Assembly: GCF_000591055.1 (NCBI RefSeq)
Contig: NC_020388.1
Span: forward strand, 1,364,001 to 1,428,000
Origin: Natronomonas moolapensis 8.8.11
GTDB taxonomy: Archaea; Halobacteriota; Halobacteria; Halobacteriales; Haloarculaceae
Direction of reading: 5' to 3'
DNA length: 64,000 nucleotides
In this document: positions 2,697 to 60,622 of the stretch, piece after piece
How the letters are laid out: each line of letters opens with the position of its first letter
Numbering within the stretch: position 1 is the stretch's first letter
Notes under the pieces: generated by a model
What the model was told of the DNA's origin: nothing
What the model saw: the letters and a program-made list of their open reading frames with translations, nothing else
Database searches by the model: none
Position numbers and translations under genes: made by a program

Positions 2697-3884
2697 ATGA
2701 TACGGACGCTCGACGACCTCGACGCCGAGGGGGCCGCGCTCGGGGTTCGCGTTGACATCAACAGCCCGATCGACGGCGACGGGCTGGACGACGACGCCCG
2801 CCTCCGGGCACACGTCGAGACGATCGCCGAGTTGTGCCGTCGGGGCGCCCGCGTCGCGTTGCTCGCCCACCAGGGCCGCCCCGGCGGCGAGGAGTTCACC
2901 GACCTCCGGGCCCACGCCGACCGGCTCGACGAACTCCTCGGGTTCCCGGTCGCCTACAGCGACTCGACGTTCACCGCCGATGCCCGCGAGCGGATCGCGG
3001 GGCTCGAGCCCGGATCGGCCGTCCTCCTCGAGAACACCCGGTTTTATTCCGAGGAGTACATGTCGTTCGACCCCGAGGCGGCGGCGGAGACGTACCTCGT
3101 CGAGCGGCTCGCCCCCGCCCTCGACGCCTACGTCAACGACGCCTTCGCCACCTCTCACCGCCGCCAGCCGTCGATCGTCGGCTTCCCGGAGCTCTTGGAC
3201 CCCTACGCCGGACGCGTGATGGAGCGAGAACTCGACGTCCTCGGCAACATCGCCGAGAGCCCCGAACCCCGCGTGTACGTCCTCGGCGGCGCGAAGGTCG
3301 ACGATTCGATCGAGGTCGCGCGGTCGGTCCTCGAGCGGGGGCTCGCGGACTCGGTGTTGACCGCCGGCATCGTCGGCAACGCCTTCCTCCTGGCCGACGG
3401 CGTCTCGCTGGGGGCGGCCTCGGCGGGGGTCGTCAACGAACGAAGCCACGACGCGGTCAAGAACGCCGGGGACCTGCTGGACGACTTCAGCCACCGGATA
3501 TATATGCCCCGCGACGTCGCCGTCGAGCGCGGCGACGAGCGATGCGAGTTCGACCTCGACGAACTGCCGAGCAACAGCCCGGCGATGGACATCGGCGTAC
3601 GGACGGTCGCGGCCTACGCGGAGATTCTCGACGACGCCGGGACCGCGATCCTCAACGGCCCCGCCGGCGTCTTCGAGGACGACCGCTTCGAGACGGGCAC
3701 CCTCGAGATGTACAGCTCCGCGACACGGGCCGATACGAGCATCGTCGGCGGCGGCGACACCGCCTCCGCGCTCCGGAAGCTCGACCTCCTCGAGGGGTTC
3801 GACCACGTCTCGACGGGCGGCGGCGCGGCGCTACGAATGCTGACCGGCGACACGCTCGCCGGCGTCGAGGCTCTCCACCGGTAG
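2697..3884 (+). CDS. pgk: phosphoglycerate kinase
   Basis: Cytoplasmic glycolytic/gluconeogenic enzyme that transfers the acyl phosphate of 1,3-bisphosphoglycerate to ADP. At 395 aa it is full length for the archaeal family. Visible motifs are the N-terminal substrate site VRVDINSP (17-24), HQGRPGG (58-64), LLENTRF (110-116), VNDAFATSHR (146-155), the hinge GGAKVDDS (197-204), and the nucleotide-binding GGGD and STGGGA near the C-terminus. A GNAT acetyltransferase follows after two bases, so the pair is probably cotranscribed. Nothing is truncated. Confidence 0.97.
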   Translation: MIRTLDDLDAEGAALGVRVDINSPIDGDGLDDDARLRAHVETIAELCRRGARVALLAHQGRPGGEEFTDLRAHADRLDELLGFPVAYSDSTFTADARERIAGLEPGSAVLLENTRFYSEEYMSFDPEAAAETYLVERLAPALDAYVNDAFATSHRRQPSIVGFPELLDPYAGRVMERELDVLGNIAESPEPRVYVLGGAKVDDSIEVARSVLERGLADSVLTAGIVGNAFLLADGVSLGAASAGVVNERSHDAVKNAGDLLDDFSHRIYMPRDVAVERGDERCEFDLDELPSNSPAMDIGVRTVAAYAEILDDAGTAILNGPAGVFEDDRFETGTLEMYSSATRADTSIVGGGDTASALRKLDLLEGFDHVSTGGGAALRMLTGDTLAGVEALHR

Positions 3885-9965: not shown

Positions 9966-10790
9966 ATGGGCGTGCCAGATGACGTCGAGGCGTTCGCGGC
10001 GGCGATCGGCCCCGAACCGGACGCGGTGCTCGAATCGATGGACCGACGCGCGGCGGCGGCGGGGTTTCCGACCGTCGGCCCCGCGGTTGGCGGGTGGCTC
10101 CGGGTGCTCGCCGGCCTCGTCGACGCCGAACGGGTCTTCGAGTTCGGATCGGGGTTCGGCTACTCCGCGTACTGGTTTCTCGGCGGGATGGCCGAGGACG
10201 GCGAGATCGTCCTCACCGAGATCGACGCCGAGGAGTTAGACGCCGCCCGGGAGTATCTCGAACGCGGCGGCTACGCCGACCGCGCGCGTTTCGAGGTAGG
10301 GGACGCAGTCGGGATCGTCGAGGACTACGAGGGACCCTTCGATATCGCGTTGCTCGACAACGAAAAGCACCGATACGTCGAGGCGTTCGAGGCGATCCGC
10401 CCGAAGCTCCCCGTCGGCGGCCTCGTCGTCGCCGACAACGTAATCGAGGGTCCCCACGAGTTCGGGACGCTACGCCGGCTCGTAGCCGAGGGCGGGGACG
10501 GCGATATAAACGTGGACGGCGGCAGGGAGAGAAGCGCCGATGGAGAAGCCGACGGCGACGGAGAAGCCGACGGCGACGGAGAAGCGGACGGCGGCGGAGA
10601 AGCGGACGGCGGCGGAGAAGCCGACGGCGACGGAGAGAGAAGCGACGACGGGCAACGACTCGGCGACCCACACGCAGACGCGGCCCGCGGGATCGAAGTG
10701 TATCTCGAGCACGTTCGATCCGCGGAGGGGTTCGAGACCGCGCTGCTCCCCGTCGGCGAGGGGCTGGCAGTCACGCGACGGACCGGGTGA
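9966..10790 (+). CDS. class I SAM-dependent O-methyltransferase with internal repeat insert
   Basis: A 274-aa methyltransferase of the caffeoyl-CoA/catechol O-methyltransferase type. Motif I is VFEFGSGFGYSAYWF (about 56-70), followed by EIVLTEIDAEELDAAREYL (motif II) and the metal-site-like FDIALLDNEKHRYVEAFE with VADNVI. Residues 194-223 are five 6-residue repeats (EADGDG/EADGGG) encoded by an 18-bp tandem repeat. They form an acidic flexible insert before the last strands (GIEVYLEHVRS...LAVTRR). The family does not normally have this insert. The acceptor substrate is unknown. The ATG is chosen from the TATA box spacing. Confidence 0.85.
   Translation: MGVPDDVEAFAAAIGPEPDAVLESMDRRAAAAGFPTVGPAVGGWLRVLAGLVDAERVFEFGSGFGYSAYWFLGGMAEDGEIVLTEIDAEELDAAREYLERGGYADRARFEVGDAVGIVEDYEGPFDIALLDNEKHRYVEAFEAIRPKLPVGGLVVADNVIEGPHEFGTLRRLVAEGGDGDINVDGGRERSADGEADGDGEADGDGEADGGGEADGGGEADGDGERSDDGQRLGDPHADAARGIEVYLEHVRSAEGFETALLPVGEGLAVTRRTG
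10545..10634 (+). repeat. five 18-bp tandem repeats inside the methyltransferase gene
   Basis: The unit gaagccgacggcgacgga occurs five times in frame; the middle two copies carry c-to-g changes. It encodes Glu-Ala-Asp-Gly-(Asp/Gly)-Gly. It is a coding microsatellite that lengthens a surface loop without breaking the frame. Confidence 0.9.
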
Positions 10791-10820
10791 GGTGGTGTTC
10801 GGCCCGAGGGTCGACAGCCC

Positions 10821-10884
10821 CCGACTCCGACAGCCTCCGACTCCGACAGCCTCCGACTCCGACAGCCCCCGACTCCGACAGCCC
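10821..10884. repeat. four 16-bp tandem repeats between two convergent genes
   Basis: The unit ccgactccgacagcct is repeated four times with one or two changes. It fills the gap between the methyltransferase stop and the FKBP gene stop. Both genes end here, so it lies in the 3' region of each. Confidence 0.85.
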
Positions 10885-10887
10885 CGT

Positions 10888-11358
10888 TCAGTTGACCTCG
10901 ACAATCTCGATTTCGAACGTCAGCGTCTCGCCGGCGAGTCGGGGGTTGAAATCGACCCGGACGACCGCCTCGCCGCTGTGGACGACCTCGCCGTGTTGGC
11001 CGTTCTGCGCCTCGAGGTAGGCACCCTCTTCTGGGGTCTGCCCGCCGAGCATCTCCCGTAGCTCCTCGGTCTCGAACTCCTGGACGCGCTCCTCGCTGTG
11101 TTCGCCGTAGGCCTTCTCGGGCGGGATCGTGAGCGTCGTGGTCTCGCCGGCCTCCAGGCCGACGAGCCCCTCCTCCATCCCCTCGATGACCTGTTCGGCG
11201 CCGACGTCGACCGTCAGCGGCGTGTACTCGCGGTCGGGCTGGGCCTCCGCCAGCCCCGCCTCCTCGGCGACGGCTTCGCGGGAGGTATCGAAGACGGTCT
11301 CATCGTCCAGTCGGCCGGTGTACTCGAGCGTCACGGAATCGCCAGTAGCTATCGTCAC
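10888..11358 (-). CDS. FKBP-type peptidyl-prolyl cis-trans isomerase (SlyD-like)
   Basis: A 156-aa proline isomerase/chaperone with an FKBP core (GDSVTLEYTGRLDDETVFD, then VIEGMEEGLVGLEAGE). An insert-in-flap domain of about 50 residues (EKAYGEHSEERVQEF...) gives chaperone activity in SlyD-type proteins. The C-terminal FKBP strands (AGETLTFEIEIVEV) close the fold. The only start that fits the family N-terminus is GTG at 11358. The frame runs upstream, but those residues do not look like FKBP and no ATG is present. Cytoplasmic. Confidence 0.88.
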   Translation of the reverse strand: MTIATGDSVTLEYTGRLDDETVFDTSREAVAEEAGLAEAQPDREYTPLTVDVGAEQVIEGMEEGLVGLEAGETTTLTIPPEKAYGEHSEERVQEFETEELREMLGGQTPEEGAYLEAQNGQHGEVVHSGEAVVRVDFNPRLAGETLTFEIEIVEVN

Positions 11359-11471
11359 ACCGGTTCGAGGTTCGCCACACGGAAAACCCGTTGCATCGGG
11401 AGGCGACCGGGCGGAAACTCGGTTCGAATTCCCCTGGTGTATCCGTGGTTCGCGGGATCTTCGCCGCAAAG

Positions 11472-57733: not shown

Positions 57734-57759
57734 TGTGACACCACTGTTTCCGGAGCTAT
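57734..57759 (+). other. ORB-like box 1
   Basis: tgtgacaccactgtttccgg followed by agctat; best-conserved left box, plus orientation. Confidence 0.8.
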
Positions 57760-57835
57760 TGGGTATTGAAATGGCTTGTGAAGCCGTATATTCTCAGACA
57801 GATAGCTGCGGAGATATTGGTCTTTTTATATTCGA

Positions 57836-57862
57836 TGCCCTCCATCGTTTCCGAAGCTTTCA
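57836..57862 (+). other. ORB-like box 2 (degenerate)
   Basis: Core gtttccgaagctt with one internal change; plus orientation. Confidence 0.55.
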
Positions 57863-57945
57863 CACCGGTCGGAGAGTATCAGCTGGGCAGCTCCCGTAGT
57901 GCGAGGAGGACGTCCCGAGGTCGATGTTGAACAGCGTTCAGCTGT

Positions 57946-57970
57946 AACGTCCCGGCGCTTCCGGAGCTAT
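57946..57970 (+). other. ORB-like box 3 (degenerate)
   Basis: Core gcttccggagctat after cccgg; plus orientation. Confidence 0.6.
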
Positions 57971-58011
57971 CGTCGCGGATAGCGCCCGGAACGAGAAATC
58001 AACGCCGGGAC

Positions 58012-58037
58012 ACAGACACCACTGTTTCCGGAGCTAT
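58012..58037 (+). other. ORB-like box 4
   Basis: acagacaccactgtttccgg followed by agctat and then a G-rich run (gggaggggaagatggg); plus orientation, nearest the AT-rich region. Confidence 0.8.
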
Positions 58038-58195
58038 CATGGGAGGGGAAGATGGGATGAGAGGACGGAGAACTCACGTACGGCTGAAACCGTGGGGATC
58101 TCGGTCACGGATTGAGGAGCCCACAGAGAGGGTTTCCGCTGGTACGCGGTAGAGTCTTCGACCGCGCCAGCACATACTCCGGCTTGGATGGCAGG

Positions 58196-58412
58196 CCTGT
58201 TTATTTTAACAGTTGTATTTGTGATAGCAACAATTGCATATATAATATTAATAGTTGCATTTGTGATGTTAACAGTTGTATGTATATATTGCTGGTATCC
58301 ACACACGCGCACACATACGCACATGCACAAATTTATATACGCTCGTATATGTACTTATATATACACTTATGTATACAGTGTTAATAAATATATTTATAAG
58401 ATGTACGCTTAG
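58196..58412. other. AT-rich duplex-unwinding region of the origin
   Basis: About 215 bp dominated by A/T with alternating purine-pyrimidine runs (cacacacgcgcacacatacg, tatatatacac). It has internal repeats aacagttgta...tttgtgat (58211 and 58272 region). It ends at the palindrome gtacgcttagcgtac (58401-58415). It translates as a hydrophobic/Tyr-rich frame that is best regarded as an artefact. Confidence 0.75.
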
Positions 58413-58431
58413 CGTACGCCCGACACCGAAT

Positions 58432-58474
58432 CGGTTCTCACCCAGTACGGTGCCGGTTCTCACCTAGTACGGAC
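58432..58474. repeat. direct repeat in the origin
   Basis: ggttctcacccagtacgg and ggttctcacctagtacgg, 24 bp apart and 17/18 identical, between the AT-rich region and the right-hand boxes. Confidence 0.75.
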
Positions 58475-58558
58475 TAACTCTTACGTCGTCGTTTAAACCT
58501 TTCCGTACTACGAGATCGTGACTTGCCGAGCCCACTACGAACCGTACCTCACGAAGCC

Positions 58559-58586
58559 ATAGCTCCGGAAACACCGGGGAGTGTGC
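58559..58586 (-). other. ORB-like box 5
   Basis: atagctccggaaacaccggg then gagtgtgc; minus orientation. Confidence 0.78.
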
Positions 58587-58600
58587 ATCACCTAGCTCGC

Positions 58601-58627
58601 ATAGCTCCGGAAACGATGGTGTGTGAG
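58601..58627 (-). other. ORB-like box 6
   Basis: atagctccggaaacgatggt then gtgtgag; minus orientation. Confidence 0.8.
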
Positions 58628-58659
58628 GAATATATAAATATCGAGCTTCGGACGCTCCG

Positions 58660-58687
58660 GAAGCTCCGGAAACAGAGGGCTTAACAC
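58660..58687 (-). other. ORB-like box 7
   Basis: gaagctccggaaacagaggg then cttaacac; minus orientation, ending about 20 bp before the orc1 start. A partial box (acgctccgg) precedes it. Confidence 0.72.
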
Positions 58688-58708
58688 AGCGTAGCGCAAC
58701 GCCGTTTC

Positions 58709-59965
58709 ATGGGGATGTTTCAGCGAGATCGTCGGGTATTCGCCGATGCTGAACCCCTTGACGACTCCTACGAGCCCGAGGACATCAGAGAACGCGACGA
58801 GGAACTCGAGAAGTACCAGCGCGCGCTCCAGCCGATCATCGACAACCGCCCTACGTCGAACATCTTTCTGTACGGGAAGACGGGAACTGGAAAGACCGTC
58901 GCGACCAAATTCATGCTGTCGCACTTGGAGGACGACGCCGCACAGTACGACGATATCGACCTCTCGACGGTCTGGGTCAGCTGTGAAAACCTCTCGTCGT
59001 CGTACCAGGTCGCCGTCGCCCTCGTCAACGAACTCCGCGAGAGCCGAGGTGGAGACCGTATCAGCACGACTGGCTACTCCCAACAGCGGGTGTTCGACAT
59101 CCTCTACGAGGAACTCGACGTGCTCGGCGGGACAGTCGTGATCGTCCTCGACGAGATCGACAACATCGGCCACTCCGACGACATTCTCTACGGGCTCCCG
59201 CGGGCGCGCTCGAACGGCTACGTCGAGGACATCCGTCCGGTCATCGTCGGCATCAGCAACGATTTCCAGTTTCGGGACAACCTCTCCCCGAAGGTCAAGG
59301 ACACGCTGGCCGAAAAGGAGATCCTCTTTCCGCCGTACGACGCCAACCAACTCCGGTCGATCCTCGAACCGCGCGCCGAGAAGGCGTTCCACGATGGGGT
59401 TCTGGACGATGACGTCGTACCGCTCTGCTCGGCCTTCGCCGCCCAGGATACCGGCTCCGCACGGCAGGCGATCCGCCTCCTCCGAGAGGCGGGCGAACTC
59501 GCCCAAGCCGACGGGTCCGAGACGATAACCGAAGTCCACGTCCGGAACGCCCAAGACGAACTCGAAAAGAACCAACTCTACGAGGGGATGCAGGAGCTCA
59601 CCACCCAGGGCCACGCCGTCCTCTGTGCGCTCGCGTACCGCGAGGCGCTGGACGAGGTGCCGGTCCGATCCCGCGATCTTTACAAGCGGTATACGAGGAT
59701 CTGCGGCCGCCTCGACACCGACAGCGTGAGCGAGCGCCGTGTCCGGGATCACCTCTCGGATATGAACATGCTCGGACTTATACGCGTCTACGAGCGGAAC
59801 GAGGGGCTCTCCGCCGGCCGGTATCACGAGTACGAACTCGACGTTCCGCTGCGTGCCGTGCTCGATGTCCTGCTCTCGACGAGCCGTTTCGAGGACTTCG
59901 CAGGTATCATCCATTCGGCCGCCGACGACAACGGTCTCCTGCGGTCCGACATCTCAGATTACTGA
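58709..59965 (+). CDS. orc1: Orc1/Cdc6 replication initiator
   Basis: A 418-aa AAA+ initiator that binds origin boxes and loads the MCM helicase. Walker A is GKTGTGKT (56-63), Walker B VVIVLDEID (about 140-148) and sensor-1 VGISNDFQF; the sensor-2-like helix is GSARQAIRLLREAGELA. The C-terminal winged helix (about 330-418) includes RRVRDHLSDMNMLGLIRVYERNEG. The ATG at 58709 is used; a second ATG two codons later is equally possible. Origin boxes flank it on both sides, so it may autoregulate. Confidence 0.96.
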   Translation: MGMFQRDRRVFADAEPLDDSYEPEDIRERDEELEKYQRALQPIIDNRPTSNIFLYGKTGTGKTVATKFMLSHLEDDAAQYDDIDLSTVWVSCENLSSSYQVAVALVNELRESRGGDRISTTGYSQQRVFDILYEELDVLGGTVVIVLDEIDNIGHSDDILYGLPRARSNGYVEDIRPVIVGISNDFQFRDNLSPKVKDTLAEKEILFPPYDANQLRSILEPRAEKAFHDGVLDDDVVPLCSAFAAQDTGSARQAIRLLREAGELAQADGSETITEVHVRNAQDELEKNQLYEGMQELTTQGHAVLCALAYREALDEVPVRSRDLYKRYTRICGRLDTDSVSERRVRDHLSDMNMLGLIRVYERNEGLSAGRYHEYELDVPLRAVLDVLLSTSRFEDFAGIIHSAADDNGLLRSDISDY

Positions 59966-60041
59966 CCGCCGCTCTATACCGACCGCCCCTCCAGACCAGC
60001 CACCGCTTCTTACCGACTGCCGCTCTACTACCTATCTGTTT

Positions 60042-60095
60042 CAAGGAGAGAGTTCCGCCGTTGACGGCGGGCGTGAATCCGATGCGGCCAGCATA
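60042..60095. mobile_element. fragment resembling an IS200/IS605-type end
   Basis: tccgccgttgacggcgggcg is a hairpin of the kind found at the right ends of haloarchaeal tnpB elements, followed by gtgaatcc. No transposase remains nearby. Confidence 0.4.
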
Positions 60096-60184
60096 ATCAC
60101 CGTCCAGTAACGATACGGATAGTTAGATAAAATGGTTCCGTAGTATGACGTCTACCGAGGCGGTCACACCGCCCACCTGAATGC

Positions 60185-60420
60185 ACAATATCGGGGCCCC
60201 GAGTCCCCCTGCCGGGGATAGGAGTAACGGCGGTGGGGCCCCGCCAGTCACCCTGTTATGCCGACTGGGTTACAGACCACTAACCATCCCAATCCAGCGG
60301 TGCGGTGCCGTGGGAACCCCGTCGCTTACCACAGAGAGGAGGTCACTCCGCCGCCCCCACCTGCGAATCCACCATCATAACCGGTCCGTTCCGTCGCTTC
60401 GCCCTTTCACCGGTTCGAGC
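60185..60420. other. hairpin-rich GC block of unknown nature
   Basis: Two cggggccccg/ggggccccgcc palindromes (about 60192 and 60235), a tcccc-ctgc-cgggga hairpin (60214-60228) and further complementary stretches suggest a structured RNA or a remnant element. An 81-codon frame here is Arg/Pro/His-rich and unconvincing. Confidence 0.4.
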
Positions 60421-60423
60421 CAC

Positions 60424-60450
60424 TGAAAGCTTCGGAAACGGTGGAGTACG
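60424..60450 (-). other. ORB-like box 8 (beyond orc1)
   Basis: gaaagcttcggaaacggtgg then agtacgg; minus orientation, one change in the core. Confidence 0.6.
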
Positions 60451-60466
60451 GCCGGTGCCGCCCCAG

Positions 60467-60529
60467 AACGATGCCTCCAACGCGAGAAACGATGCCTCCA
60501 ACGCGAGAAACGATGCCTCCAACGCGAGA
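60467..60529. repeat. three 21-bp perfect tandem repeats
   Basis: Three identical units (aacgatgcctccaacgcgag + a) plus a partial fourth, between two ORB-like boxes; iteron-like in size and location. Confidence 0.88.
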
Positions 60530-60594
60530 AACGATCGTGCGTATTCCGGCCCGAAGAGAGAGAACGCGATAGAGTCAGCTACGTTCCCGAGCGC

Positions 60595-60622
60595 GAAAGC
60601 TCCGGAAACAGTGGTGTGTGAT
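60595..60622 (-). other. ORB-like box 9 (beyond orc1)
   Basis: gaaagctccggaaacagtgg then tgtgtgat; minus orientation, nearly identical to the complement of boxes 1 and 4. Confidence 0.78.

Follow-up and report, generated by a model that had tools for sequence, protein, structure and literature searches.

The window, a 64,000-nucleotide stretch of DNA, comes from the salt-loving archaeon Natronomonas moolapensis 8.8.11, which has a single 2.9-Mb chromosome, carries no plasmids, and avoids the tetranucleotide CTAG (PMC3623002). It contains an orc1/cdc6 initiator gene of 418 aa (58709..59965, plus strand), the product of which scored 434 bits with TIGR02928 (cut-off 181). The protein has AAA+, Cdc6_lid, and C-terminal Cdc6_C winged-helix domains and is alignable with the archaeal Orc1 structures 2V1U and 2QBY. 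The intergenic region adjoining the gene, as in haloarchaeal orc1/cdc6-associated origins, carries inverted ORB-like repeats: four boxes on the minus strand to the left of an AT-rich stretch (57741-57757, 57842-57858, 57952-57968, and 58019-58035) and three on the plus strand to its right (58561-58577, 58603-58619, and 58662-58678), the array ending ~30 bp 5′ of orc1. These are the seven boxes that an earlier, sequence-only reading of the stretch had placed around the AT-rich region ahead of orc1, and all were found in the opposed orientations it gave; two further plus-strand boxes downstream of the gene, at 60426 and 60596 (cores 60428 and 60598), were absent from its list.

Read 5′ to 3′ toward the G-rich end, the box core is AGCTYCGGAAAC followed by RGTGG, and the right end (GTGGWGKG) lacks a long G run. 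The complete 23-mer GACACCACTGTTTCCGGAGCTAT is common to only two copies (57737 and 58015), the remaining ones keeping the core with 1–3 changes. We scored the boxes with a weight matrix derived from 200 boxes in other species, those of the window being left out. In the left arm, boxes L1 (ATAGCTCCGGAAACAGTGGTGTCA, 57736..57759), L2 (AAAGCTTCGGAAACGATGGAGGGC, 57837..57860), and L4 (ATAGCTCCGGAAACAGTGGTGTCT, 58014..58037) reached 33.8, 32.8, and 34.2 bits, respectively, while L3 (AGCTCCGGAAGCGCCGG, 57952..57968), the right half of which is degenerate, has one mismatch to AGCTCCGGAAACNNNGG and fell under the threshold of the model. In the right arm, R1 (ATAGCTCCGGAAACACCGGGGAGT, 58559..58582) scored 21.8 bits and R2 (ATAGCTCCGGAAACGATGGTGTGT, 58601..58624) 36.5 bits; R3 is a doubled box beside the orc1 start (58653..58678), with AGCTCCGGAAACAGAGG at 58662 and a degenerate right half. 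The downstream boxes D1 (AAAGCTTCGGAAACGGTGGAGTAC, 60426..60449) and D2 (AAAGCTCCGGAAACAGTGGTGTGT, 60596..60619) scored 32.2 and 38.8 bits, the latter being the best box of the window. They flank 3.3 perfect tandem copies of a 21-bp repeat (AACGATGCCTCCAACGCGAGA, 60467-60535). The AT-rich stretch (58200..58420), presumably the unwinding region, contains imperfect 21-bp and 12-bp tandem repeats (58202-58290 and 58334-58377), and the GC content is 0.46 at 58000-58499 in comparison with ~0.64 around it.

The sequence-only reading had staked its proposal on the repeats not recurring throughout the genome away from orc1 genes, and they do not. The exact 12-mer AGCTCCGGAAAC occurs at seven places in the 2,912,573-base genome, of which six fall inside a 2.9-kb span (1,421,746-1,424,609, corresponding to window 57746-60609), and the reversed control pattern occurs at none. 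With the looser AGCTYCGGAAACNNNGGNG and at most one mismatch, eight of the nine genome matches fall at the locus. The family model likewise recovered seven boxes within the window, and 715 kb of sequence sampled from the rest of the genome yielded none; the five boxes it found in the region upstream of orc1 compare with a maximum of zero in 1000 Markov controls. Chance or generic repeats unrelated to Orc1 would have nothing beyond the palindromic TCCGGA within the box to recommend them; they are at odds with these counts and with the conservation of the boxes in 24 other loci, and as the boxes are recovered by a model made from other species, we give this explanation practically no weight.

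To place the box in a wider context, we collected the Orc1 relatives sharing it, here called family A: 20 loci from the genome collection and 18 plasmid records with >80% identity, spread over Haloferacaceae, Natrialbaceae, Haloarculaceae, Halobacteriaceae, and Halococcaceae. In many of the other species, the pair of gene and boxes is mostly plasmid-borne. The haloarchaeal search for the core beside orc1 paralogs, proposed in the sequence-only reading, showed the box to accompany a ~82–91% identical orc1 in 24 other loci. Across 25 family-A loci, we counted 207 matches with at most three mismatches, or 8.3 per locus, in comparison with 0.57 per locus for the same box seed in 30 Halobaculum-type loci and 0.45 in 11 family-B loci. 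The consensus is gAwAGCTYCGGAAACRGTGGWGKGT. The box is thus common to Orc1 proteins at least ~80% identical and different in other Orc1 families. The layout is kept as well: Relative to the start codon, a pair of minus-strand boxes lies around -410 and -360, and plus-strand boxes follow around -150, -110, and -50; R1 (~-150) and R2 (~-110) of the window stand at family positions. Downstream boxes begin ~50 bp past the orc1 stop, and at least one lies within 700 bp downstream of the gene in 22 of the 25 loci. In this genome the boxes are confined to the locus, and in relatives they keep their layout. As the box goes strictly with family A across haloarchaeal families, and other Orc1 families combine the generic right half (GTGG) with a different left half, the separate Orc1–ORB specificity pair suggested earlier is well supported.

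Two members of the collection differ from the common form. A 129-kb plasmid holds two family-A orc1 copies (10362-11363 and 85954-87207) with nearly identical upstream boxes, and in one of them the N-terminal part is missing from the match. In Haloarcula amylolytica, the match covers only the C-terminal 138 residues of the family-A Orc1 (locus 3001-3414), and two downstream boxes are present without a full-length orc1 frame, apparently as an origin remnant.

In the circular plasmid pHSR-CO (34,990 bp), the single initiator annotated is a family-A Orc1, surrounded by the same array. Read from annotation, and with an initiator of another type possible, this plasmid is our strongest indirect indication that the pair may suffice for replication. 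It also bears on whether Orc1 could instead be a transcription regulator, like Orc1-2 of Sulfolobus, and the boxes its operators rather than an origin. Orc1-2 paralogs are known noninitiators (PMC9738581), and the boxes at our locus adjoin promoter-like sequence. However, the boxes of this genome are restricted to the orc1 locus and hence define no regulon, plasmids carry the family, in one case as the sole annotated initiator, and inverted arrays with an AT-rich center are the layout of an origin. We consider a purely regulatory role improbable. From sequence, the locus is very probably a chromosomal replication origin with ~9 copies of a private box and a neighboring orc1, and the prediction of an origin with its own Orc1–ORB pair is supported.

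We compared the boxes of other Orc1 families. The Halobaculum-type box is ACWGCGGACAYNGTGGTGT, that of family B, represented in the same genome at 1.630 Mb, GACACTGGACACAGTGGGGTG, the type of Haloarcula marismortui pHMA133 CTTCACTTGAAAGAGTGGTGTG, that of pR1SE2 ACACTCGACACGGTGGGGTG, and the Halorussus type GACAGCGGAAACGRTGGGGT. The GTGG right part is common to several families, and the left parts differ. The winged-helix comparison called for in the sequence-only reading gave a parallel picture: The segment SERRVRDHLSD is nearly constant inside family A, and the corresponding segment is VPRRMRDHL in the Halobaculum type and family B and GQRSLHNHL in the marismortui type. The differences are consistent with family-specific recognition, with residue–base assignments unproven by these alignments. 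A further element, GTGG[TC]TTTA[TA], at most 60 bp from the start, was present in family A (23 of 25 loci) and in the Halobaculum type (27 of 30); it fuses the last box with a TATA-like sequence and suggests autoregulation. Tentatively, and with rather more doubt than confidence, we propose that the ORB is a two-part address, in which the GTGG right half is common, the left half is private and read by the winged helix, and the box positions and the TATA-fused box are fixed. If true, family A, the Halobaculum type, and family B would form a readable Orc1–ORB recognition code, and one could predict from the protein sequence of an Orc1 which origins it is able to use. The contrasts between box families also provide a natural data set on how Orc1 proteins distinguish origins.

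The principle of a private Orc1–ORB pair is not new, as such pairs have been described in haloarchaea (Wu 2012, PMC3528665; Wu 2013, PMC3936714), and there are precedents as well for genes with boxes on either flank, for titrating clusters placed downstream, and for dormant origins gained by acquisition (PMC3528665, PMC3936714, PMC4441112, PMC4595724). Our locus resembles the origins of PMC3528665 in its AT-rich region flanked by inverted ORB-like repeats beside orc1/cdc6, in the tie of the ORB to an Orc1 family, and in its patchy, mobile distribution, and in some members of that group boxes likewise flank the gene on both sides; the boxes may differ at the G-rich end, which is GTGGWGKG here rather than a long G string. 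We did not find the core AGCTYCGGAAAC printed in the haloarchaeal origin literature, supplements being outside the scope of that search; the box may be in the supplement of PMC3528665, as the genome of Halalkalicoccus jeotgali, whose plasmid 1 carries a family-A member, was used in that study. Extra boxes of matching type immediately follow the initiator gene, as in oriC2-cdc6E/oriC2D of Haloarcula hispanica (PMC3936714), although there are two here in comparison with 11 in oriC2D. The genome's own oriC1-like locus, near 3 kb and close to the contig start, shares an Orc1 gene and inverted boxes with the window locus but has the box CCACCCGAAACAAAGGGGATGGGGGG and an Orc1 only ~37% identical, and the window locus was rejected as a haloarchaeal oriC1 on these grounds. 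The suspicion that the core differs from that of the main haloarchaeal origin is supported, as is the likening of the layout, with its inverted boxes, AT-rich region, and TIGR02928 Orc1, to established archaeal origins.

The reading that we prefer, with a probability of roughly 0.85, is that the locus is a self-contained origin–initiator cassette of a plasmid-borne family-A Orc1, now residing in the chromosome. The Orc1 produced from 58709 would bind its private ORBs as opposed arrays on either side of the AT-rich region, melt that region, and recruit the MCM helicase. Through the boxes beside the orc1 start it may repress its own gene, and the two downstream boxes may, by analogy with oriC2D, titrate Orc1 and lower initiation. 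In Haloarcula hispanica, origins are used by the product of the adjacent cdc6 (PMC3936714). Our analysis adds a clearly delimited Orc1–ORB pair that occurs in several haloarchaeal families, for the most part on plasmids; with one copy caught in a chromosome reported to be plasmid-free, the acquisition of an extra origin, and its use versus silencing, become directly testable.

That the cassette is in active use during normal growth of this host is, in our judgment, a toss-up. Its Orc1 is intact, and the gene showed dN/dS of ~0.03–0.10 against 21 relatives where computable, with synonymous sites near saturation; such values indicate strong purifying selection and a protein kept working. On the other hand, the window copy is atypical. 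The inner gap is ~525 bp in comparison with 209 bp in family A, the left-arm boxes are spaced by 101, 110, and 67 in comparison with 49, and the promoter-fused GTGG[TC]TTTA[TA] is missing, this being one of two such loci among the 25. These departures fit either remodeling after capture or decay. In the Orc1 tree, the window protein has an end branch of 0.10 in comparison with 0.014–0.028 in its nearest relatives; the inner branches are mostly too weak to identify a donor. Over 50-odd sampled stretches of the genome, GC skew and coding-strand bias were noisy, showed no switch at 1.42 Mb, and so speak neither for nor against an origin; we gave no weight to a local skew change around 57.5–58.5 kb.

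Recently acquired origins can be dormant, as is oriC4 of H. mediterranei (PMC4595724), and capture followed by dormancy or decay, with a genuine Orc1–ORB pair that does not normally start replication, is a variant compatible with the cassette reading. The longer center, the altered left arm and lost promoter-fused box, the faster evolution of Orc1, the rarity of the family-A gene in the genus (2 of 20 genomes), and the foreign-looking block nearby all favor dormancy, and precedents exist in H. mediterranei oriC4 (PMC4595724) and H. hispanica oriC3-cdc6D (PMC4441112). An intact Orc1 with dN/dS of ~0.04 speaks against it, as do the boxes that remain: three near-perfect ones on the left, two on the right at family positions, and two downstream. 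We place dormancy at slightly under even. The likeness to oriC4-cdc6H of H. mediterranei and oriC3-cdc6D of H. hispanica extends to the setting, all being chromosome-acquired pairs near variable or foreign DNA and absent from close relatives; H. argentinensis, the bearer of a cdc6D homolog, has a family-A gene.

The cassette lies almost opposite to the oriC1-like locus, 48.8% of the circle away, and at a synteny breakpoint as judged from gene order: The left-side genes (copA, cox, surE, and the gene at 57016) keep their order in relatives, and the right-side genes are found elsewhere. With the left block conserved and the right-hand genes relocated, a clean empty site could not be demonstrated in relatives. 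A low-GC block of ~200 kb (~1433000-1650000; GC 0.46–0.6 in most 4-kb bins in comparison with ~0.66) starts ~5 kb past the right end of the window and ~10 kb from the origin. Inside it are an Orc1-like fragment (near 1.453 Mb) and the family-B orc1 origin (1630398), and the published prophage at 1,501,283-1,545,787 would fall there too (PMC3623002). The setting resembles that of Haloarcula origins acquired with new genomic content (PMC3528665, PMC4441112), an analogy that need not imply a single integration event. No tRNA was found at the block edges in the stretches scanned, and a search of phage records and viral contigs gave no match. CTAG occurs only twice in 3 kb of the origin region, which is indecisive as a mark of foreign DNA.

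To the left of the array, the minus-strand gene at 57016-57681 has no Pfam or NCBIfam match, occurs in most of the genus (19 of 20 genomes), and adjoins surE in four relatives; it represents a conserved, uncharacterized family. Gaps near surE and tspO contain 24-bp (6.4 copies, 56800-56952) and 29-bp (6.7 copies, 55290-55482) tandem repeats.
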